DNA from: a virus
Virus record (IMG/VR): IMGVR_UViG_3300010885_031948
Span: 1 to 24,563 of that record
Strand: one strand, 5' to 3'
Length of the DNA stretch: 24,563 nt
The notes beneath the pieces are model-generated. The model had not been told where the DNA came from. It worked only from the letters and a program-made list of their open reading frames with translations, and did not search any database. The position numbers and the translations under genes were made by a program. Position 1 is the stretch's first letter, and every line of letters begins with the position of its first letter. Positions 2,117-24,419 of the stretch are shown here, one piece after another.

Positions 2117-2185
2117 ATGCGTGACTTTTTAACGGGGGTGCTGGCATGGATGCTGCAATTATTATTCTCCGCCGCGTGCTTCTAA
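2117..2185 (+). CDS. Possible 22-residue hydrophobic leader peptide
   Basis: A short frame begins at an ATG seven bases after a GGAG at 2106-2109, which is a better-placed ribosome site than the one before the protease start at 2146. It would encode a strongly hydrophobic 22-residue peptide (starts MRDFLTGVLAW, ends SAACF) and overlaps the first 40 bases of the protease gene in another frame. It could be a translated leader that couples initiation of the protease, or chance. Nothing in the sequence proves translation. Confidence 0.2.
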   Translation: MRDFLTGVLAWMLQLLFSAACF

Positions 2186-2970
2186 TCTTCTTTTGCTTAA
2201 TAGCTAGCTCTGGCGGCCTTGTTACAGCCGGCACCCGAGATCCCGAGACTCCCGACGAAAAGTACGTAGAGTTTGGCAAGAAGTTTCCGTTTGTGAGAAA
2301 AATTAGGGCTGTAGAGCGCGCCCCCAAAGACCCCAACGCCGTGCATGTCTTTTACGGCTCGGCTGTAATGATTAAGCCGCACTGGGTCATCACCGCGGCG
2401 CATGTCTTAATCGACGTAGACCAGCCGACTATTCTGGGCGACGAGCTGGATCCCGTGGAATACCCCATCCAGCACACTATTTCTCACCCCAAGTTTGACG
2501 ACGGCAAGAATGGCTACTACGACCTAGCTCTTTGCTATTCAGCGAAAGACTTGGGGTTAGACTTCTACCCAGCGCTGTACACAGAGCACGATGAGCTGGG
2601 AAAAGAAGCTACGCTGGCTGGGTTTGGCTTTCAGGGCACGTTTCATACTGGCATGGTGGAGCAAGACGGCAAGCGCAGGGCCGGGAGTAACAAGATTACA
2701 AGCCTAGAGCGCTCGGTGCTGGTGTGCGACCCCAGCATGTACCAAAAGACTGTACTAGAGTTTCTTATTACACCGGGTGACTCTGGCGGCGGGTTATTCA
2801 TTGGCAATAAGTTAGCTGGGATCCACTCGTTTCTTATGGCCAGTGATGGCAAGCCCAATGGGACGTACACAGACGAGTCGGCGCATACCCGTGTTAGTTT
2901 GTACGCAGATTGGGTAGAATCACAGATCGAGCAGTATGAAAAAACTCACCAGAGCCCGGCCGCACCATGA
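2146..2970 (+). CDS. Secreted trypsin-like serine protease
   Basis: This 274-residue protein is an S1-family (chymotrypsin fold) serine endopeptidase. The catalytic triad is complete: H86 in VITAAHV, D126 in YYDLAL, and S213 in the GDSGGG motif, followed by a typical LAGIHSF strand. Residues 1-29 form a signal peptide or signal anchor (two Arg, then a long hydrophobic stretch ending near VTAG), so the enzyme should act in the periplasm or outside the cell, or be membrane-tethered. The length is normal for a trypsin domain with a short propeptide. The ATG at 2146 is preceded by only a weak GGGGGTG. The downstream small membrane-protein gene overlaps its stop codon (ATGA), suggesting translational coupling. 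The substrate is unknown; cleaving host surface proteins or activating the other peptidases encoded nearby are possibilities. Confidence 0.9.
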   Translation: MDAAIIILRRVLLIFFCLIASSGGLVTAGTRDPETPDEKYVEFGKKFPFVRKIRAVERAPKDPNAVHVFYGSAVMIKPHWVITAAHVLIDVDQPTILGDELDPVEYPIQHTISHPKFDDGKNGYYDLALCYSAKDLGLDFYPALYTEHDELGKEATLAGFGFQGTFHTGMVEQDGKRRAGSNKITSLERSVLVCDPSMYQKTVLEFLITPGDSGGGLFIGNKLAGIHSFLMASDGKPNGTYTDESAHTRVSLYADWVESQIEQYEKTHQSPAAP

Positions 2971-10059: not shown

Positions 10060-10644
10060 ATGTTGCCCGCAATGACGCCTATTGAGTTTGGTTATTACAC
10101 GGGCGCTACAGCCCAAGAGAAGCAGGCGTTTTTGGGCGCATTGGCCAAGGGTGTCGGCCGGGCAGCCAACACGGGCGCGCAGTATTTAGTCAGTGGCGCA
10201 TCGCACGCAGCGACGGGGCTTGGCGCTGCAGCGAACGCGGTTGGTCAAGGTGCGCGGGCTGCTGCGGGCGGCGGTATGCAAGCAGGGCAGGGCTTATTAA
10301 GCAGCGGGCAGGCGCTATCGCAGGGCGCCGCGCTCCACGGTGCTGCGGGCGGCCTCGCCGGCCGCGCCATGGACACCGCCGGCGACGTGCTGACAGGCTC
10401 AGGCGCTGCAACGCGATTGGGTAGCCGGGTATTGGGTGTGGCGGGCCAAGGTGCGCAGCTTGCTGGTCAGGGCGCCAACATGCTGGGCCAAGGCCTTGCG
10501 AACGCTAATAAAACTACTGCGGGTCGGGCTGTAGCTGCTGGTGGTATTCTGGCTGGTGGCGCCGCGGCTGGCCACGCGGCTGGCTTGGAAGCCCGCTCGC
10601 CGGTCACGATGCAGTTCCATAACCCAATTGGGTTTCGTAAATAA
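10060..10644 (+). CDS. Gly/Ala-rich putative virion-associated protein with FG...KQA motif
   Basis: The ATG at 10060 follows an AGGAG at 10049-10053 (CAGGAGAAGCACC), a strong ribosome site. The 194-residue product opens with TPIEFGYYTG (F10-G11, G15) and K21-Q-A23, the same signature as the neighbouring genes. The rest is nearly all Ala, Gly, Gln, Leu and Ser with repeats of forms like GQGxxxAGQGxxxLGQG, which suggests long glycine-zipper helices. The end (GGILAGGAAAGHAAG) is a hydrophobic glycine zipper, then a basic tail. Glycine-zipper proteins often insert into or cross membranes, so a DNA-injection or internal virion role is my guess. No catalytic motif is seen. Confidence 0.72.
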   Translation: MLPAMTPIEFGYYTGATAQEKQAFLGALAKGVGRAANTGAQYLVSGASHAATGLGAAANAVGQGARAAAGGGMQAGQGLLSSGQALSQGAALHGAAGGLAGRAMDTAGDVLTGSGAATRLGSRVLGVAGQGAQLAGQGANMLGQGLANANKTTAGRAVAAGGILAGGAAAGHAAGLEARSPVTMQFHNPIGFRK

Positions 10645-11369: not shown

Positions 11370-12313
11370 AAGAACCCCCAATGAATCACTTTGAATTCGG
11401 TTTAGCGGTCGGTGTGATGACCAAGAGTGCCAATCCCGGCGCTACAAATAGCGGTGGCTTAATGGGAAACATTGGCCACATGGGTAACCAGCTCATGGGC
11501 GCATGGAATAGCATGCCGGCTGAGTCGCGTACAGCTATTGCTGCTGGCGTACCCGCTGCGCTGGCTGGTTTGTATTTACATCACAGGGGCAATACCACAG
11601 CTGGCACAGGGCTGGGCTTGGCTGGCTTAGCCGCGGCTGGCGTTGGGGCTGCTCATGCTGGCATGTTCGGTCAGGGCGCACAGAAGTTTGTAGCGCCGCA
11701 CGTGAAGAATATCAGTAACATGGCCTCGCAGTTCATGGGCGGCCAGCAGCAGAACCCGATGGCGGCCAACCACGAGTACGGCCAAGCGATGCAGGGCCAT
11801 CTTGAGAACCAGCTGCAGAACGCCAGCGCCACTCCCGCCATGAAGGCCGGCGCCTATATTGCCGAGAAGCTAGCCGCTGGGCGGTGCTGGAAGGGTTACG
11901 AGCCAGTACCGGGCAAGGCGCCTTACAGCAACGACTCTTGCCGGCCGGCGGGAAAGAAAGCCAAGAAGAAGAAAACAGAAGAGAAGACTGCGGCCAAAGA
12001 TTGCGGCTGCACTTCCATGACAGAAACTCCGTCGAGCCGGGGCACGACCAAAAAAGTCAACGACGAGCAAAAGAGCACTGACAGCCCCAAGCCCGAAGAC
12101 GCTGGCGCAACGCAATTGGCTAAAGCATCGCAGGCACCCGTGCCGCAATCAGTTTCAGTGTGGGGCGGTACGCTGCCAAAGACGCAGACGACGGCCAAAC
12201 CCGCTGCCAAGCCGGCAATCCCGAAAAGCGTGTCTGCGTGGGGCGCAGCGCCGTCTCATGGCCCATCGGGCTACATAGACAACCAAGCTGCCCGGTCGTG
12301 GGGAGGCATGTGA
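11366..12313 (+). CDS. FG...KSA-motif protein with Cys-basic module and WGG repeats
   Basis: The ATG at 11366 overlaps the cupin stop; an ATG at 11381 is an alternative start. The 315-residue protein has the shared N-terminal signature F11-G12, G16, K20-S-A22. A hydrophobic glycine-rich region (about 50-110) follows. After EKLAAG comes a small module around C174, CWKGYEPVPGK ... SCRPAGKKAKKKK, seen in various phage and giant-virus proteins, then a KDCGC cysteine pair. The C-terminal third is Pro/Ala/Lys-rich and contains three related WGG or WGA units (SVSVWGG, SVSAWGA, ARSWGG). It has the same modular logic as the partial protein at the left edge. Probable virion-associated protein; no enzyme motif seen. 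Confidence 0.72.
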   Translation: MKEPPMNHFEFGLAVGVMTKSANPGATNSGGLMGNIGHMGNQLMGAWNSMPAESRTAIAAGVPAALAGLYLHHRGNTTAGTGLGLAGLAAAGVGAAHAGMFGQGAQKFVAPHVKNISNMASQFMGGQQQNPMAANHEYGQAMQGHLENQLQNASATPAMKAGAYIAEKLAAGRCWKGYEPVPGKAPYSNDSCRPAGKKAKKKKTEEKTAAKDCGCTSMTETPSSRGTTKKVNDEQKSTDSPKPEDAGATQLAKASQAPVPQSVSVWGGTLPKTQTTAKPAAKPAIPKSVSAWGAAPSHGPSGYIDNQAARSWGGM

Positions 12314-14902: not shown

Positions 14903-15937
14903 ATGGCCAAGGGTTTAGACGTCGGAACTTCTTTCATTGTCTTAGCGTCTGATAGCCTCGAACCTATCAGCTACACCAGCGACGATAAGGCTGAATTTAT
15001 CAGCTACAAAGACTTCCGAGACGCGTTCTACGTGATTAAACCCACGACGCCCGTGGCCACGAAAATGATTGAGAAGGGCCTGCAGGGCAAAGTGTTTGTG
15101 AAAGACACAGACGGCGCGTTTATTCTCATCGGCCAAGACGCCATTGATAAAGCCATCGAGCGCAACGAGTCGGCTAAGCGTCCTATGTACCGCGGCGTAG
15201 TCTCTCCCAAAGAGAAAGAAGCCAAGCGCGTATTGGCTTTTATTCTCAAAGAAGTCGCCGGCAAAGCCACCGAAGAGAACGAAAAGCTCGTATTTTGTGT
15301 GCCGGCCCAGCCTGTAGACCAAGACGACGAGGACTTTGACGTCGGCTACCACGAAGACGTCGTCAAGGCTGTCTTGGCCGAGCAGGGCTATCAGGCGCGC
15401 GCTATCAACGAGGCTGAAGCGCTGTGTTACTCAGAGCTAGCGAACGATGATTACACGGGAATTGGTTTGTCGTGGGGCGCTGGTATGGTGAACGTGTGCG
15501 TAATGCTCAACGGCGAGCCCACAGTCTTGTTCTCGACCACCAAATCCGGCGACTGGATTGATAGGATGGCAGCTGTGGCAACTGGCGAAGAAGACTCTGT
15601 CGTTCAAGCTGAGAAAGAACACGGTGAGTTCACTATCGGCGAACCCAACGAGAATCCGGTGTTAGCCGCCGTGGGTGCCTATTACGAACGCTTGATTGAC
15701 TACACCACCAAACAGCTAGCGAGCGCGCTCTTGAACCACAAAGCGCTGCCCAAGTTCAAAGAGCCGTTATTGATAGCATTCGCGGGCGGGACTACGCGGG
15801 CCAAAGGTTTCCTGCAGATGTTTGAAAAGAAACTGGCAGAGAACAGTTTCCCGCTGCCTATCAAAGAAGTGCGTCACGCCAATGACCCGCTTCATGCTGT
15901 GGCTCGTGGCTGTCTGATCGCGGCTAAAATTCTCTGA
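14903..15937 (+). CDS. Actin/Hsp70-fold ATPase (ParM/MreB/FtsA-like)
   Basis: AAAGGAAAG precedes the ATG. The 344-residue protein, the usual size for bacterial actins, shows the three nucleotide motifs of the fold: phosphate-1 GLDVGTS (4-10), phosphate-2 GIGLSWGAGMVNVCV (about 186-200) and the adenosine motif AFAGGTTRAKGF (about 290-301), plus the connecting NEAEALCY segment and a C-terminal NDPLHAVARGCLIAA helix like those of MreB and ParM relatives. Known phage actins segregate DNA or organise replication at the membrane. Polymerisation and function here are not shown. The preceding one-helix membrane protein may be its partner. The sequence is divergent and I cannot assign it to a named clade. 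Confidence 0.8.
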   Translation: MAKGLDVGTSFIVLASDSLEPISYTSDDKAEFISYKDFRDAFYVIKPTTPVATKMIEKGLQGKVFVKDTDGAFILIGQDAIDKAIERNESAKRPMYRGVVSPKEKEAKRVLAFILKEVAGKATEENEKLVFCVPAQPVDQDDEDFDVGYHEDVVKAVLAEQGYQARAINEAEALCYSELANDDYTGIGLSWGAGMVNVCVMLNGEPTVLFSTTKSGDWIDRMAAVATGEEDSVVQAEKEHGEFTIGEPNENPVLAAVGAYYERLIDYTTKQLASALLNHKALPKFKEPLLIAFAGGTTRAKGFLQMFEKKLAENSFPLPIKEVRHANDPLHAVARGCLIAAKIL

Positions 15938-17378: not shown

Positions 17379-17450
17379 TGCCTGATAGCTCAACGGTAGA
17401 GCGAGCGGCTGTTAACCGCTAGGTTCTAGGTTCGAATCCTAGTCAGGCAG
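17379..17450 (+). tRNA. tRNA-Asn (anticodon GTT)
   Basis: A complete 72-base cloverleaf: acceptor TGCCTGA/TCAGGCA (7 bp), D arm GCTC/GAGC, anticodon arm AGCGG/CCGCT with loop CTGTTAA giving anticodon GTT at 17411-17413, T arm CTAGG/CCTAG with TTCGAAT, discriminator G. The T1-A72 pair and G73 match bacterial tRNA-Asn. CCA is not encoded. It reads AAC and AAT codons. It stands between the lysis-like pair and a small conserved gene. Confidence 0.96.
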
Positions 17451-17467
17451 CACACATGGAGCGACAA

Positions 17468-17696: not shown

Positions 17697-18914
17697 ATGG
17701 ACAGCTTATCAGCGCTTGATCCGCTGGCGTGGGATCCTGAGTTTTTCAAAGAACACCCGGCCTACGCTGCCGGCCAAGCCCTTGGGTGTCTGTATCAGGG
17801 CAACAAGCAGGCCGCGACAAGCTATCCACTCTCCGGGCGGCTATATCTCTCTAAGTCCGGCTGGCTTCTGCTTTCTGTGCCCAATGCGCTCGTGCGGGGT
17901 GTGTATGACGCCATGACAGCACCGGGCGCTGAACTGCCCATTGGTGAGCATTCCGAGGTGCTTAACGCGCACATCACGGTTATGACCGGCGATGAAGTAA
18001 CAAAAGTCGGCGCTGACAAGATCAACGAGCGCGGCCACATGTTCGGCTACACGCTAGGCTCTCTTAAAGAGATTGAGCCAAAATCAGGCAGTCAGCTCAG
18101 CAAAGTCTGGGCAATTCAAGTCTCGGCGCCGTTACTCTCAGCTTTGCGCAAGAGCTACGGCTTGTCGGCGCTGCCAAATGACGACGAGCCGTTCCACATT
18201 ACAGTGGCTGTGCGCAAGCGCGGTGTCTTACTCGATAACGGCGTCGCCAAGGGCTACGAGACTCCCACGGAAGTTACAGACGGTGAGAGCTTCGCGCATC
18301 CCATTAGTCGGGGAGAGTTAAAAGCTGCCGCAAACGGACTTTCCCGAGCGGGAACAAATGATTGCTTACACAGCAAATTTTCCCGCACGGGAACAAACGA
18401 TCTGTTACATGGTGGAAAAGCTGACAATGTTCCCGATCGGGAATTCTTCCCAACATCACTCGCTGAGGGCCAAGAAGATGAGCGCGAACACACAGACAAT
18501 GATCAAGTCGCCAAAGAAATTGCCAAGGATCACCTGTCCCAAGACCCCCAGTACTACAAAAAAGAAAAGCTGATTGAGCAGCTGCCGGCCAAGATCGCCA
18601 GCGTGTACATGCAGCAGCTCAAAAATCTAGCCAACTTCCGTGAGCCGATTGTGTACGACGAGTCTAAGCCCGTGTATCAGAACGTGGTTGACCATGTGTT
18701 CAAGGCTAAGCAGCGCGGGGATTTTATCTTGCGCTCACAGCAGAACGCGCATAACTACAAGGCGATGCTGGACCCGCACTACAGATATCAAGTAGCGATG
18801 CAGGCGGTGAATGGCACGTTGCCCCAGATGGACCCATTAGATAAAACCGTACAGATGTACGGTAATGATATCTTTGACACCATCGGCAATCTGGGGAAGA
18901 AAAAGCATGGCTGA
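17697..18914 (+). CDS. 2H-phosphoesterase-like domain fused to DUF5661-type module
   Basis: The 405-residue protein begins with a variant of the KQA signature (K37-Q-A39). Residues about 45-205 carry two HxT motifs, H92-I-T94 in NAHITVM and H167-I-T169 in FHITVAV, the hallmark of 2H phosphoesterases (LigT, cyclic phosphodiesterases), which act on RNA termini, cyclic phosphates or cyclic nucleotides. Residues 216-245 are a low-complexity linker with two near-repeats FSRxGTND. Residues about 262-292 (REHTDNDQVAKEIAKDHL...YY) match a small DUF5661-type module frequent in phages. The C-terminal 110 residues are helical and unrecognised. The DNA for the linker contains three palindromes. A phage 2H enzyme could degrade host cyclic-nucleotide signals or repair RNA; that is inference. 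Confidence 0.75.
   Translation: MDSLSALDPLAWDPEFFKEHPAYAAGQALGCLYQGNKQAATSYPLSGRLYLSKSGWLLLSVPNALVRGVYDAMTAPGAELPIGEHSEVLNAHITVMTGDEVTKVGADKINERGHMFGYTLGSLKEIEPKSGSQLSKVWAIQVSAPLLSALRKSYGLSALPNDDEPFHITVAVRKRGVLLDNGVAKGYETPTEVTDGESFAHPISRGELKAAANGLSRAGTNDCLHSKFSRTGTNDLLHGGKADNVPDREFFPTSLAEGQEDEREHTDNDQVAKEIAKDHLSQDPQYYKKEKLIEQLPAKIASVYMQQLKNLANFREPIVYDESKPVYQNVVDHVFKAKQRGDFILRSQQNAHNYKAMLDPHYRYQVAMQAVNGTLPQMDPLDKTVQMYGNDIFDTIGNLGKKKHG
18341..18443. repeat. Three palindromic TTCCCGnnCGGGAA sites inside a coding linker
   Basis: TTCCCG-AG-CGGGAA at 18341-18354, TTCCCG-CA-CGGGAA at 18380-18393 and TTCCCG-AT-CGGGAA at 18430-18443. All six-base arms are exact; starts are 39 and 50 bases apart. The first two also share flanking AACAAA-GAT and TTACA. 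No fourth copy was found when reading the window. They look like a regulator or replication-protein binding array, or repeated small hairpins in the mRNA. Confidence 0.65.
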
Positions 18915-19215: not shown

Positions 19216-20353
19216 CGAAGAAAACTACACGCCCTATGTAGAGTGGCGCCGCGTTCCCCAAAGAGTGGCGGAACTCGTTCCATATGCGCTGGCGGCCAAG
19301 CTTGTCCACGAAAAAGCTGCTGTCGCCGCTGGTATTGCGAGTACCACAGCTGCCACGTGGACGCCCGAACTTAATGCCATCACGGTGTACACGCCCGAGC
19401 CGTTGTCCAAGACGGCGTTGGACATTTACGAGCGCGAGATGGCTGATGGCGACCACAATCTGGCTGTTGTGCCCATGATGGACGTCACGCCAAACTGGGC
19501 CGAAGAGATTATTATTAAACAGGGCACGTTGATTCCGGGTCTGCCAACTGTTTGGAACACCGGGAACAAACTATTAGGCGGGCCGACGCCGTTATCTAAT
19601 GGCATCGTGGCGAGTGTTTTGGGCGCAGGCGCGGGCTACGGCGCGGGCACATTAGCCGAGCACTTGTTTCCAGAGCGCTACCTTCAGCGCGGCAAGCTTC
19701 GCCGCACGTTAGCTATGATGGGTGCGCTTGGTGGCGTGGGTCTAGCTGGCGTGAATGCCTACGCCAATGCGCGCGCGCTCCGTACGGGCATGCTCAGCGG
19801 CTTAGTGACGCACAACGAAACGCCCGTGGTGTCGCCGTATGAGCAGGCTAAGTTAGAGAAAGAATCGTTCGACCAGTTTGGCGGCGACTTTCTCCACAGC
19901 CAAATGAACCAGCAGCTGGGTATGAACGCCATGCAGCAGGCGAACCAGCAGCAGTTCATGCAGCAAGGCATGTTTAACCAGCAGCAGCAAAACTCATTGC
20001 CGCCGATGTATCAACCGAGTGTTCCCGTGGCGCAGTTTAACAACGCTATGTGGAACGACGTGCGCAAGGGTATGACCAACGGTTTTGATACACACACGCC
20101 ACCGCAGTATGCCGCGGCCACAACAGGACTCATGTCTGGGATCAGCACTAACAATAACTCACCCATTATTCGCCCGATTGACGTAGTAACTGGTATTGCG
20201 TCCGCCGGCGTTGGATTAGCCACCGCGCACGTTGTCGGTAAAACCCTTTCGGCATTGGCAGGATTAACACCAGCTGGGCAGAACAAGTTACAGGACATGG
20301 GGTTATGGGGCGGCATGATGCACGCCATCGTTCCGCCTATGTTTGGTCGTTAA
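19208..20353 (+). CDS. Putative virion-associated protein, glycine-zipper and Gln/Met-rich
   Basis: This 381-residue protein has an alpha/beta-looking N-terminal domain (residues about 1-110, WTPELNAITVYTPEPLSKTALDIYEREMADG), a glycine-rich hydrophobic segment (GIVASVLGAGAGYGAGTLAE, then MMGALGGVGLAGVNAY), a Gln/Met-rich middle (about 235-270, many MQQ and QQQ) and a final hydrophobic region (VTGIASAGVGLATAHVVG). No known family. The composition and hydrophobic glycine segments resemble the FG...KxA proteins upstream, although the N-terminal motif is absent, so it may belong to the same virion or injection apparatus. Confidence 0.68.
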   Translation: MISEENYTPYVEWRRVPQRVAELVPYALAAKLVHEKAAVAAGIASTTAATWTPELNAITVYTPEPLSKTALDIYEREMADGDHNLAVVPMMDVTPNWAEEIIIKQGTLIPGLPTVWNTGNKLLGGPTPLSNGIVASVLGAGAGYGAGTLAEHLFPERYLQRGKLRRTLAMMGALGGVGLAGVNAYANARALRTGMLSGLVTHNETPVVSPYEQAKLEKESFDQFGGDFLHSQMNQQLGMNAMQQANQQQFMQQGMFNQQQQNSLPPMYQPSVPVAQFNNAMWNDVRKGMTNGFDTHTPPQYAAATTGLMSGISTNNNSPIIRPIDVVTGIASAGVGLATAHVVGKTLSALAGLTPAGQNKLQDMGLWGGMMHAIVPPMFGR

Positions 20354-20421
20354 CATCGGTGTTGCGCCACGTATACGCGTGTGTCACAATAGGTAGTATT
20401 AACTTGCATGGAGGCAAAACA

Positions 20422-20799
20422 ATGGCAACTGCAAAAAAGAGTGTTGAAACAATCCGTGAAGAACTGCGCGTCCTGACAGCCGCGGCTGACGACGCGACCG
20501 CCGTGGCTGCAAAAGACAACTGGCTGACCCCTGAATTCTGGACCATGGCGACGGCCGCGCTGACCAATCTCATGACCGTGGCCGTGTTAATCGGCTGGGT
20601 TGACCACACAAACGCAGATGCTCTGATGACGGCTGTAACCGCTATCATCGGCGCGTCGCAGGCTATCGTTGTGAACACGGCTTTGATTTGGAAGTTTATT
20701 TCCAGCCGGGCGCAGACCAAGGCGCAGATGGTTGAAGCGCGCTATCGCTACATGGAAGCCATCGCGGTAGAGAAGTTTCGCGCTGAGCGGAGTTTTTAA
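20422..20799 (+). CDS. Two-helix membrane protein (holin-like candidate)
   Basis: GGAGGC precedes the ATG at 20422; the longer in-frame frame runs across the intergenic gap and is unlikely. The 125-residue product has an N-terminal amphipathic region, then two probable transmembrane helices (FWTMATAALTNLMTVAVLIGW and ALMTAVTAIIGASQAIVVNTALIW) and a basic/charged tail with AQTKAQMVEARYRYMEA. This topology is common in phage holins and in short tail-associated membrane proteins, and a second holin candidate in one genome segment is notable. Confidence 0.65.
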   Translation: MATAKKSVETIREELRVLTAAADDATAVAAKDNWLTPEFWTMATAALTNLMTVAVLIGWVDHTNADALMTAVTAIIGASQAIVVNTALIWKFISSRAQTKAQMVEARYRYMEAIAVEKFRAERSF

Positions 20800-20800
20800 C

Positions 20801-21205
20801 ATGCAACTCGAAGAACTGGAAGCAAAGGTTAACGCATCTCCGGCGCTACGTTCCCTGCGTGACCGGTGTATGTCGGAGATGTCGCACCGCGTGGATAACT
20901 CGACGCAGTTTGGCATTATCTTGATTCTGAGCATGATTTCAGTGGCTATTCAGATTGCCACATACTGCAAGAACAAGAACAAGGCTGAGTTGCTGCAGGA
21001 CATGCGCGATATTCGAACACTGCCGCCGCGAAAGCTTTTACGGCTCAAGCGGCAAGTCAACAAGTTGTGGCGCGAAGAATATCCCGACAAGCCAATTACA
21101 GTACGTCAGCCTAACCCGATGCTGGAAGTAATGTACGAGTTGGGCGAAAACGCTGAGGACGCCGCGTTAAACGAACTGTTAACATTAGCGAACGTACCTG
21201 ACTGA
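20801..21205 (+). CDS. Single-helix membrane protein with charged C-terminus
   Basis: GGAG at 20789-20792 is eight bases before the ATG. The 134-residue product carries one transmembrane helix (STQFGIILILSMISVAIQIATY) after a short helical N-terminus, then a long basic/acidic domain (RDIRTLPPRKLLRLKRQVNKLW, later LEVMYELGENAEDAALNELLTLA). Proteins with an SQFGIIL-type helix are frequent hypothetical proteins of large phages. The role is unknown. It is one base from the preceding gene, indicating coupled expression. Confidence 0.65.
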   Translation: MQLEELEAKVNASPALRSLRDRCMSEMSHRVDNSTQFGIILILSMISVAIQIATYCKNKNKAELLQDMRDIRTLPPRKLLRLKRQVNKLWREEYPDKPITVRQPNPMLEVMYELGENAEDAALNELLTLANVPD

Positions 21206-21231: not shown

Positions 21232-22059
21232 ATGGCAAAAAAAGCAAAAACTGCTGACGTGCAGGCGAGCGTTTTGCCTACGCAAGAAATCCTGAAGAAG
21301 CTCTTTGATCTTGGCTATTTCGGCGCCAAGTCGTGGGCTGACGTGCAGAACCTGAAAGGCGCGCAGCTGATCAAAGCCATCAAGGCTTTTCAGGCATTTC
21401 ACGGGTTAGATCCGACCGGCGTGGTGGGCCCGAAGACCGCCAATAATATCAATAAGCGTCGGTGCGGCCTGCCGGACTTCAATATCACGGCAGCGAATAG
21501 CGCGCCCTGCAAGTGGCCTATGGCGGCGATTACGTACTTCCATCAGGTCAAGCTTCCGGGCATGACTGATGAGCAAGTCAAGGAAGCCTACGACATTGCG
21601 TTTTCGCAGTGGGCCAAGGTCTGCGATATCGAGCCTGTGCGCGTGGACGGCCCCACGAAGGCGAATATTTACGCGAAGTCTGGCGTGGGCCGGGCAAACG
21701 GTTTAGATGACCGCGGCGGCACACTCGCGTGGAGCGAACTGCCGTGCGGCGTTGCTGAGAATGTTCAGCTTGACCAGATGTTCGACGAGGCGGAGGCGTG
21801 GAGTTTTAATATGGCCGTGGCTGTGATCTGCCACGAGCTGGGCCATGCACTGGGTCTGCCGCACTTGGAAAACGGCAACTTAATGGCGCCCTATTACGAC
21901 CCAAACGTGACAGCGCCGCAGAAGGGCGACGTCAAAGAGATTGTGAAGCTCTACGGCAAACGCACGAAACCTTACGCTATTACACAAGACGCGTCGCTGC
22001 AAATTGGCGGCACTATTGTTATTAACGGTCGGCCGTACGTACTAGTGCCGAAGACCTGA
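21232..22059 (+). CDS. Matrixin-type metalloprotease with peptidoglycan-binding-like prodomain and cysteine switch
   Basis: I chose ATG 21232 (AAGG nine bases upstream); 21223 is an in-frame alternative. The 275-residue protein has a peptidoglycan-binding-1-like domain (about 16-75: LFDLGYFG ... AIKAFQAFHGLDPTGVVGPKT), then RRCGLPD with C78, which is the PRCGxPD cysteine switch of matrix metalloproteinases. The catalytic domain has HELGHALGLPH with zinc ligands H201, H205 and H211, and NLMAPYY as Met-turn. This is the full M10A (matrixin) layout: inhibitory prodomain, switch and catalytic domain. In eukaryotic enzymes, the Cys blocks the zinc until the prodomain is removed. There is no signal peptide, so release by lysis or virion packaging is needed. 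The final 50 residues are a short beta-rich tail. Confidence 0.9.
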   Translation: MAKKAKTADVQASVLPTQEILKKLFDLGYFGAKSWADVQNLKGAQLIKAIKAFQAFHGLDPTGVVGPKTANNINKRRCGLPDFNITAANSAPCKWPMAAITYFHQVKLPGMTDEQVKEAYDIAFSQWAKVCDIEPVRVDGPTKANIYAKSGVGRANGLDDRGGTLAWSELPCGVAENVQLDQMFDEAEAWSFNMAVAVICHELGHALGLPHLENGNLMAPYYDPNVTAPQKGDVKEIVKLYGKRTKPYAITQDASLQIGGTIVINGRPYVLVPKT

Positions 22060-22095: not shown

Positions 22096-22383
22096 ATGAC
22101 TCAGTTTCAAATGATTTGCGCTGTTGTATTTGCATTAGCTGCATTAGCTGTGTATCGCAGCGTGCTGGCAAATGGTGTGCGTAGTTTACTGCGCGGCGCT
22201 ACACCTTCAAACGTGCCCGTGGTGCAGCCGTCGATCGCTGTGAATCTTGTGAATGACATTGTGTCGGTGACGAATCTTCGGGATCGTCTGACCGCGGAAG
22301 GTTGTCAAGAAGGCGCGGAAGCCTGCACGGCGTTACTGCGCGTGATCGTGGAGTTCAAGGAACCATCAAAGGGTGTCGTATGA
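22096..22383 (+). CDS. Small membrane-anchored protein (95 aa)
   Basis: TGGAG lies nine bases before the ATG. The product has one N-terminal hydrophobic helix (FQMICAVVFALAALAVY) followed by a soluble region with two Cys (GCQEGAEAC) and a Val-rich end. No family is known to me. Its stop overlaps the start of the next membrane protein by four bases (ATGA), so the pair is coupled. Confidence 0.65.
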   Translation: MTQFQMICAVVFALAALAVYRSVLANGVRSLLRGATPSNVPVVQPSIAVNLVNDIVSVTNLRDRLTAEGCQEGAEACTALLRVIVEFKEPSKGVV

Positions 22384-22841
22384 ACTGCAAAAACTGTAAT
22401 ACAGCTCTGCTGTGGTTAGCCGGCGCCTTGCTGGCCGTGTCATTTGTGTTCCCCAATGGCCTGAAGCTCGGCAAGCCCGCAGCCCCAGTTGCGCCAGTTG
22501 CTGAGCACGCTACAGACGCTGAAATTGTTCGGGTGTTGGCCGAAGCCACAGCTGCTGACAAAGCGAACGTTAATGGTATTTATACGGCACTGGCTACGAT
22601 CCTGCGCCGTGACATTGCCAAGCCGCCCATGCGGATTACGACCACTGAGAAATGGGCTGATCTGCAGGCAAACACGCTGCAGTTAGCTATTGAGCAAGTG
22701 GGTAAGTATCCGGGTTTAGACAAAGCCATCGAGGCCGTGTTTTTGGCAAAAGTCGGCACGGATGATGTGGTACAGGGCTCACCAGAAACGCACGCCAAGT
22801 TAATCGACGCGTGCGAGACGATTGCCAGTTCTGCCCGCTAG
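22380..22841 (+). CDS. Membrane-anchored helical protein with N-terminal CxxC
   Basis: The ATG at 22380 overlaps the preceding TGA (22381-22383). The 153-residue product begins MNCKNCNTALL, a CxxC pair, then a transmembrane helix (LLWLAGALLAVSFVFP), a Pro/Ala linker and a soluble helical domain (DAEIVRVLAEATAADKANVNG ... DLQANTLQLAIEQVGKY). It could be a lipoprotein-like or signal-anchored periplasmic protein; a second Cys-based function is not evident. Function unknown. Confidence 0.65.
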   Translation: MNCKNCNTALLWLAGALLAVSFVFPNGLKLGKPAAPVAPVAEHATDAEIVRVLAEATAADKANVNGIYTALATILRRDIAKPPMRITTTEKWADLQANTLQLAIEQVGKYPGLDKAIEAVFLAKVGTDDVVQGSPETHAKLIDACETIASSAR

Positions 22842-22850
22842 GAGTTTTTA

Positions 22851-23369
22851 ATGTTTGACGCCATGCTTATTCTGGCGGCAAAAACAGTCTTTGTTCTGTT
22901 TTTGTTGTGGTACTTGGTGTGCATTGCGCTTTCCGTATACGAGTTGTTACTTTGCGGGTTAAATGTATTTGTACATGTACCTGTAGGGTTGAGAGTTGTT
23001 TTACAAAAAGGTGAAATTATGGCAAATGTTCTGACATATCGTGTTTCTGTAAATGCTCCGGTTGACGGCGACGTTGTGTCGCGCGAGCTGACGGTGACCG
23101 TAAACGGTGTTGAGTCGACGGTTGTGACGGCTGCTGGTACCGCGACGGACCTTGGTTCCGTGGACGTACCGCAAGACGCGCTGGTTGTTCTTTCTTTGGT
23201 CGACGTGGACGATGCCGGCAACAAGTCGGAACCGGCTACGGTTGCGTTCACTGCCCTCGATACATTAGCCCCGGCGCAGCCCGGCGGTTTTAACGTGACG
23301 CTGGTGAGCGAGAAGGTTGTGACTGATGCGCCGGTTGTTGAAACCCCGACTAATACCACGAACGGTTAA
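22851..23369 (+). CDS. Two-helix membrane segment fused to an Ig/FN3-like domain
   Basis: TAGGAG precedes this ATG, a strong ribosome site. The 172-residue frame begins with two hydrophobic helices (LILAAKTVFVLFLLWYLVCIAL and YELLLCGLNVFVHVPVGL) and continues into a beta-rich domain from residue 57 (NVLTYRVSVNAPVDGDVVSREL ... LVDVDDAGNKSEPATVAF). The latter is an Ig/FN3-like fold seen in phage decoration and fibre proteins. The start of the frame uses more T-rich codons than its neighbours. A second start at 23019 could yield the Ig-like domain alone. It may display the domain on the cell envelope, or the two parts may be separate products of one frame. Confidence 0.65.
   Translation: MFDAMLILAAKTVFVLFLLWYLVCIALSVYELLLCGLNVFVHVPVGLRVVLQKGEIMANVLTYRVSVNAPVDGDVVSRELTVTVNGVESTVVTAAGTATDLGSVDVPQDALVVLSLVDVDDAGNKSEPATVAFTALDTLAPAQPGGFNVTLVSEKVVTDAPVVETPTNTTNG
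23007..23021 (+). promoter_or_regulatory. Internal ribosome site and ATG for a soluble Ig-like product
   Basis: AAAAGGTGAAATT lies directly before the in-frame ATG at 23019. Initiation here would give a 116-residue soluble protein that lacks both membrane helices and starts exactly at the beta domain (MANVLTYRVSV). The spacing and fit are as good as for other genes in the window. Confidence 0.5.
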
Positions 23370-23390: not shown

Positions 23391-24419
23391 ATGGCCGCCA
23401 ACGAACATTTCTTTGAAAACGTCTATGACGTTGTGGCAGCGTATGAAACGGGCTTCACGGGTGCATACAGCAACCCCGAAGCCGCAGCTGCGCTTCGCCA
23501 GCAGATTCAAGCTGGTGGTGGTATTCCTGATGGGGCCATGGCATGCTCGGCGTATAAACTGGAAGAAACCGGGAAAGGCAAGTTAAGCCTGCCGTTTCTT
23601 GAGATTGTTAAGCTCTACCCAGACTGTTTACCGGGTGGCGCGCAGGGCCGTGGGGATTGTGTAAGTTGGTCAACCCGGAACGCCTGCTTGGGCACCATGT
23701 GTTGCGAGATTACAAGCGGCGTCCCCGACCCGAATAGCAATCGGTTAGAGGGTGCACCGGAAGTAAGCGACGCCGGCCGGCTTAGCGGCGTCTTAGCGAC
23801 AGAAGCGTTTTACAATTGGCGCCGGCACGGTGGAGACGGCTGGAGCTGCGCTGAAGCTGCGCAAGTAGCGCTTAATGACTCGGGCTTGTGGCTGCGCAAG
23901 AAGTACGACGAGATCAACGTCGACTTCACCACGTACAGCTCCAAGAATGCCGGTCTTTATGGTTCTCGTACGCCGCCAGACTCGTGGTTAGCGATCGGCA
24001 AAGATCACCGTGTCCAGACGGTTACAGAAGTCGAAGAGTACGAAGCCATGCGCGATTTACTCGCGAATGGTTATTGCATTTCATCGTGCGGCGGCGAGTC
24101 CTTCTCGTCTGATAAAGACATGAACGGCTACTCAAAGCGTACCGCTGCTGGGTGGGCTCACGCTATGGCTTATCTGGCCGTAGACGACCGCGACGAGATT
24201 AAAAAACTATATGGTGAGCCGCTTGTTATGCTCCAGCAAAGTTGGGGAAATTGGAACGACGGCGGTCGGCGTATTTTCGGCACATTTATTGATATTCCGA
24301 TTGGCGCATTCTGGGTGAAGTGGTCAGATATCAAAAACCGATATATGATCGCCATGTCGGGCGTAAACGGTTGGCCGCCCAAGAAACTCAAGAATTATGG
24401 CGCGCTCGGCAACATTTGA
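23391..24419 (+). CDS. Papain-like cysteine peptidase
   Basis: GGAG (23380-23383) lies seven bases before the ATG. The 342-residue protein has the papain-fold catalytic layout: Q85-G-R-G-D-C90-V-S-W (oxyanion Gln and nucleophile Cys), H257 in GWAHAMAYLAV, and QQSWGNW at 282-288, the counterpart of papain's NSWG...W with Gln283 where Asn normally sits. The N-terminal 60 residues are a variable pro-like region without a signal peptide, and the C-terminal part (PIGAFWVKWSDI) matches the final strand of C1-like enzymes. Several additional Cys are present. It probably cleaves proteins after release or within the virion. The Gln in place of Asn may affect activity but is tolerated in some relatives. 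Confidence 0.8.
   Translation: MAANEHFFENVYDVVAAYETGFTGAYSNPEAAAALRQQIQAGGGIPDGAMACSAYKLEETGKGKLSLPFLEIVKLYPDCLPGGAQGRGDCVSWSTRNACLGTMCCEITSGVPDPNSNRLEGAPEVSDAGRLSGVLATEAFYNWRRHGGDGWSCAEAAQVALNDSGLWLRKKYDEINVDFTTYSSKNAGLYGSRTPPDSWLAIGKDHRVQTVTEVEEYEAMRDLLANGYCISSCGGESFSSDKDMNGYSKRTAAGWAHAMAYLAVDDRDEIKKLYGEPLVMLQQSWGNWNDGGRRIFGTFIDIPIGAFWVKWSDIKNRYMIAMSGVNGWPPKKLKNYGALGNI

Follow-up and report, generated by a model that had tools for sequence, protein, structure and literature searches.

A phage-associated family of matrixins with a matrix-metalloproteinase-type prodomain and a conserved cysteine-switch motif

The window analysed here, an IMG/VR virus record of 24,563 bases, encodes a matrixin that combines the prodomain, the cysteine-switch motif and the catalytic domain of the pro-matrix metalloproteinases (proMMPs). 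It belongs to a phage-associated family of cysteine-switched matrixins that have neither a signal peptide nor the structural-zinc histidines of the animal enzymes, and whose switch would impose latency. By the features tested the window protein is a matrixin, and on the evidence it works like a proMMP; the probability that it is a zymogen held latent by its cysteine is put at roughly 0.7. To our knowledge, accounts of this type of latency come mainly from animals, plants and fungi, and no description of a cysteine-switched phage matrixin was found in the open-access literature. The gene and its parts are as follows.

21232..22059, plus strand: pro-matrixin gene, 275 aa, no signal peptide and no hydrophobic segment (ORF translation, Pfam, PDB sequence match)
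21274..21456, plus strand: prodomain, residues 15-75, peptidoglycan-binding-like three-helix fold (PF01471, 35.6 bits)
21346..21363, plus strand: basic bait-like loop QNLKGA, residues 39-44, aligned with the proMMP-1 bait region VEKRRNSG (putative role)
21457..21477, plus strand: cysteine-switch motif RRCGLPD, residues 76-82 (C78 codon 21463-21465)
21508..21510, plus strand: C93, probable disulphide with C172 (co-occurrence)
21511..21957, plus strand: matrixin catalytic domain, residues 94-242 (PF00413, 64.3 bits, full profile 1-159; structure matches)
21745..21747, plus strand: C172, probable disulphide with C93 (co-occurrence)
21832..21864, plus strand: zinc-binding motif HELGHALGLPH, residues 201-211, ligands invariant in 49 of 49 relatives
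21877..21894, plus strand: Met-turn NLMAPY, M218 (Met in 46 of 49 relatives, Leu in 3)
22009..22050, plus strand: C-terminal hairpin, residues 260-273, GTIVINGRPYVLVP, conserved

The ATG at 21232 is preceded, 8 nt upstream, by a ribosome-binding-like AAGGA, and the product begins with MAKKAKTADV. Its place among the matrixins is given by the HExxHxxGxxH motif with its catalytic glutamate, the Met-turn, the fold and a Pfam score above the curated cut-off (Matrixin PF00413, 64.3 bits against 24, E 1.6e-17). As in the cysteine-switched proMMPs, a prodomain of the expected fold and placement is present (PG_binding_1 PF01471, 35.6 bits against 23, E 1e-8), and a cysteine in a PRCGxPD-type motif lies before the catalytic domain. 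The top PDB sequence match, over residues 18-247, is human proMMP-1 (E 1.8e-16), with RCGLPD set against RCGVPD. In PHROG, the N-terminal domain matches endolysin peptidoglycan-binding domains; the likeness to endolysins is confined to this binding-like part, the catalytic part being that of a matrixin.

The AlphaFold2 model built with a diverse alignment has a mean pLDDT of 87.7 and a pTM of 0.83, and replaces a poor first run on clade sequences only (pLDDT 68). Its pLDDT is 90 for residues 71-80 and 69 for residues 81-90, the prodomain helices are modelled at 17-26, 43-56 and 67-73, and the strands of the C-terminal hairpin (261-264 and 267-270), whose counterpart in Planctomycetota prophages reads NGRRY, have low to moderate confidence. 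The model matches proMMP-1, -2, -3, -9 and -10 across prodomain and catalytic domain together: on proMMP-9 (5ue4_B) it superposes with Z 25.5 and an rmsd of 2.2 A over 209 residues (model 16-242), while the catalytic domains alone superpose at about Z 20.9. The superposition on human proMMPs places C78, in this metal-free model, at the switch position. The pro-MMP layout proposed by the sequence-only reading is borne out by RRCGLPD, HELGHALGLPH, the Met-turn, the PF01471 domain and the proMMP superposition.

The structural zinc site, formed by three histidines and one aspartate, is a feature of animal MMPs, and the Pfam matrixin profile does not require it. Alignment with MMP-1 shows LAHA replaced by LAWS and DAHFDED by DQMFDEA, so that the structural-zinc histidines are lost; the MMP ligand positions H183 and H196 correspond to W167 and M183 of the window protein. 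W167 is found in 45 of 49 relatives, and histidine at position 183 in none. The window protein lacks both the structural zinc site and the secretory signal peptide of vertebrate-type MMPs. Its catalytic domain probably carries a C93-C172 disulphide, as judged from co-occurrence: among 21 divergent members, 14 have both cysteines, 1 has a single one and 6 have neither (Fisher p 1.3e-4, uncorrected for kinship), and the pair is register-shifted to WPxxC/NxSC in seven lineages. Such a bond would suggest a working place outside the cytoplasm.

The animal and plant proMMPs (MEROPS M10A; human proMMP-1, -3 and -9) share with the window matrixin the prodomain fold, the PRCGxPD-type switch, the HExxHxxGxxH motif and the Met-turn. 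The window matrixin differs from them in being phage-encoded, in reading RRCGLPD where proMMPs read PRCGVPD, in having neither signal peptide nor hemopexin domain, and in its replaced structural-zinc histidines and probable catalytic-domain disulphide. Karilysin of Tannerella forsythia, a bacterial MMP, also pairs a matrixin catalytic domain with a propeptide and matches the model (Z 20.7, 161 residues). However, its propeptide has 14 residues and an aspartate switch (PMC6949598), whereas the window matrixin has a full prodomain with a cysteine. Mirolysin and other unicellular pappalysins are bacterial metzincin zymogens with latency through a Cys-Gly motif (PMC6949598), but they form a separate metzincin family with a short extended pro-segment and no MMP-like prodomain. 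By analogy, the nearest functional precedent is Listeria Mtz, a phage-derived metzincin that, with the TIMP-like lipoprotein Tim, makes the wall more sensitive to lysins (PMC8235301). Like the window matrixin it is of phage derivation; unlike it, Mtz is secreted with a signal peptide and has a TIMP-like partner, and a cysteine switch goes unmentioned. The MMPs of insect viruses are virus-encoded matrixins too, but of animal viruses. A survey of microbial MMPs spans more than 1,000 bacterial species and discusses neither switches nor phages (PMC12587646). In BFVD, the predicted fold of the uncharacterised Caudovirales protein A0A6J5RTD2 matches over the full length (302 columns, TM 0.69), so proteins of this kind have already been deposited without description.

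Scans of viral contigs recovered 67 loci with the matrixin at 60-94% identity, several of them on contigs of 194-205 kb. That the gene is phage-encoded is thus confirmed by the IMG/VR virus record and by syntenic relatives in phage genomes of this size. RCGLPDF, HE[LI]GHALGLxH and LMAPYY are kept in all 34 distinct clade proteins compared, and each of the 11 near-complete clade genomes has a single matrixin copy. Since clean terminal repeats were sought in one of them (G297, 205,188 bp) and none was found, "near-complete" refers to the uniform 194-205 kb size of the 11 contigs. A search of 50,697 GenBank phages by tblastn, with the window matrixin and two divergent relatives, returned no full relative, and the idea that it comes from a known phage record was rejected. 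Further phage lineages and Planctomycetota prophages with the matrixin were recovered by switch-independent searches. The family tree has long branches and was used solely to see that the clade forms one group.

An alignment of 49 relatives (25-93% identity) has no invariant columns other than C78, W95, H201, E202, G204, H205, H211 and D233, a degree of conservation far in excess of chance. Nine of the aligned sequences had been retrieved through a switch pattern and carry no weight here: conservation of the cysteine was judged from switch-free retrievals only (the zinc motif plus WSxLP in two scans, QLDQMFD/GGTLAWSE in a genome scan). The switch cysteine is kept in all 13 non-clade matrixins so obtained (L051, L052, L227, L228, L231, L232, L237-L241, L244 and L245). 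Divergent switch variants include CGCPD, CGRPD, CALPD, CSCPD, CAVHD, CGVAD and similar forms, all with the cysteine, which persists even in the degenerate LRCAHAE of L245; L246, found with the same pattern as L245, was excluded as an unrelated 158-aa metallopeptidase without a prodomain. The switch had been called intact from RRCGLPD at C78, and with the cysteine present in every aligned relative this description holds; homologues without it were sought, and none was found within the family. By comparison, none of 29 other Planctomycetota matrixin-like loci has a switch-like motif at the expected distance before HExGH. Two general Planctomycetota loci that match the expression C[GAS]xx[DE], L132 (-169) and L147 (-60), lie off the switch distance and were not counted. 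Since the cysteine occurs in all phage-family matrixins and in none of these 29 loci, the switch marks a phage-associated subfamily; as far as these sequences tell, it is not general among Planctomycetota matrixins.

In the mechanism that we propose, the window gene product would be made as a matrixin zymogen whose prodomain lays RRCGLPD over the active site, where C78 would coordinate the catalytic zinc, as in the superposed human proMMPs. Because it is made without a signal peptide, the enzyme would be held off in the reducing host cytoplasm and activated only outside it: cleavage of the prodomain or oxidation of the thiol would free the zinc when the cell lyses or once the particle has been released. 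Probably stabilised by the C93-C172 bond, the mature protease might then cut host surface proteins and thereby serve egress, which is the weakest step of the scheme. Two further peptidases encoded in the window are candidate activators.

2146..2970, plus strand: trypsin-like peptidase, candidate activator (PF00089, E 1.4e-13)
23391..24419, plus strand: papain-like peptidase, candidate activator (motifs GDCVSW, WAHAM and QSWG, by eye)

The papain-like protein has neither a Pfam nor a PDB match. It had been suggested from the window's sequence that these two peptidases activate the matrixin, and the same triple layout was searched for in phages. Each of the two genes occurs once in 11 of 11 near-complete clade genomes, whereas 15 further phage contigs with a matrixin, mostly fragments, yielded neither. 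The layout thus stands as a trait of the clade and does not extend to phage matrixins in general; the two enzymes probably do not activate matrixins across the whole family, and that version of the proposal was dropped. Within this clade, activation by the neighbouring peptidases is possible. A trypsin-like cut is plausible there, since all clade members have a basic bait-aligned loop and either K or R at position 94, next after C93.

The genes between about 14.4 and 24.4 kb of the window keep their order in about 27 representative loci, and within this region the matrixin gene is flanked by the papain-like protein and by small proteins with hydrophobic segments.

20305..20799, plus strand: small protein with two hydrophobic segments, holin-like by topology only, syntenic in 27 loci
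20801..21205, plus strand: small protein with one hydrophobic segment, syntenic
22096..22383, plus strand: small protein with an N-terminal hydrophobic segment (by eye), syntenic in 27 loci
22302..22841, plus strand: small protein with one hydrophobic segment, likely start ATG 22380, syntenic
22851..23369, plus strand: N-terminal hydrophobic segment and Ig-like C-terminal part (by eye), syntenic

Other features of the conserved region include an actin-like Volactin gene at 14903-15937 (PF25216, 6.5e-62), 75-97% identical across 25 related loci and found among GenBank phages in two uncultured huge phages only; a tRNA-Asn gene (gtt) at 17379-17451; and a 2H phosphoesterase-like protein at 17697-18914 (PF22547, 2.4e-9), syntenic in 27 loci. 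Elsewhere in the window, a 680-aa DUF6321 protein (12-2054) has a second HExGH motif, HEIGHALGGKG, and by this motif is possibly a further zinc peptidase. A 33-nt repeat (ACGGGGCTTGGCG...) lies in three copies within coding sequence (642-674, 10213-10245, 11606-11638). The clade also encodes ferritin-like and penicillin-acylase-like (AAT/NAAA) proteins and a multisubunit RNA polymerase with Rpb1-/Rpb2-type domains (L006:13556-16822; L249:14967-19379), one gene of which adjoins the matrixin region.

The neighbours of the matrixin have no PHROG match and the holin-like genes match no holin family, so that "holin-like" describes topology only; this membrane-gene context is not common to all other matrixin phages. 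Among 182 proteins of G297 compared with Pfam, no lysozyme, amidase, transglycosylase, M23, CHAP or NlpC domain was found, and Amidase_2 and SLT domains are absent from 26 matrixin-bearing records. Beyond these 182 proteins, a divergent endolysin could be hidden among large tail proteins, one of which has 2,542 aa, or among short ORFs. The small membrane-protein genes on both sides, together with the lack of a recognised peptidoglycan hydrolase in G297, point to egress, and lysis or egress is tentatively proposed as the main job of the window matrixin.

It is doubtful, though conceivable, that the enzyme belongs instead to the virion or its assembly, either trimming or maturing the phage's collagen-like fibres or travelling on the particle and cutting a host protein coat at entry. 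Animal collagenases are matrixins, and collagen triple-helix repeats occur in 11 of 11 near-complete clade genomes, with 3-31 matched stretches each; in G297, four proteins have collagen-like Gly-X-Y stretches of 219-507 residues each.

ORFs 70634-72784, 86793-88751, 164614-165516 and 165523-170064: collagen-like proteins of G297 (L249-L259)

The L238 matrixin, moreover, lies among genes that by eye resemble head-tail connectors. Against this, the matrixin has no recognised tail- or capsid-targeting domain, collagen-like fibres are common among phages generally, and of the 15 further phage contigs with a matrixin, just one has collagen repeats. Collagen is therefore not the family's shared substrate; the proposal was set aside at that level and kept as an alternative for the clade. 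Being abundant in the clade and nearly absent from other matrixin phages, collagen leaves a host-surface protein as the favoured common substrate.

A role as accessory (cargo) protease, directed at the host envelope in the manner of Listeria Mtz and distinct from that of a lysis enzyme, is unlikely. In its favour, a metzincin/TIMP-like pair of phage origin raises sensitivity to phage lysis (PMC8235301), and secreted or membrane-anchored neighbours adjoin many family members. Among these is a secreted-looking protein of about 430-500 aa with no Pfam match, a possible partner of the matrixin, which it follows in four loci, two of them in prophages and two on phage contigs.

L051:3785-5074, L052:3892-5193, L206:8284-9576 and L240:1886-3397: secreted-looking neighbour protein, mutual identity 25-64%

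Mtz, however, carries a signal peptide and is described without mention of a cysteine switch (PMC8235301), while the window matrixin is made without a signal peptide. Finally, the endolysin-type PHROG matches and the score above the PF01471 cut-off could mean that the N-terminal domain binds peptidoglycan and targets a constitutively active protease, with C78 structural or incidental; this is very improbable, given that PF01471-type folds are common to MMP prodomains, that C78 lies within an MMP motif in a region superposing with proMMPs, and that it is kept in 49 of 49 relatives against 32-41 for the other cysteines. Most likely, the protease stays inactive in the cytoplasm and acts on host surface protein during or after release.

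As to the host, two of the three genome matches of the matrixin lie in Planctomycetota prophages. L051 has genes for terminase (1.5e-8), portal (1.9e-16) and capsid (4.4e-21) within about 11 kb, and L052, on a 333-kb contig, has a capsid gene (8.5e-20) about 13 kb away on the same strand. Since these prophages contain relatives, and the closest ones outside the clade, Planctomycetota are the most probable hosts of the family; that the 200-kb clade itself infects them is inferred only from its matrixin relatives.

With a phage zymogen family that has a full MMP prodomain, the unit of prodomain and switch has a home in bacterial viruses, and phage matrixins bear on the origin of that unit. More speculatively, and with the odds against it, the C78-locked matrixin of several divergent lineages of Planctomycetota phages may be a stored lysis or egress enzyme that replaces or precedes a peptidoglycan endolysin and is armed on release. 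The phage matrixin offers a compact system for studying phage-timed protease activation and the surface make-up of Planctomycetota.
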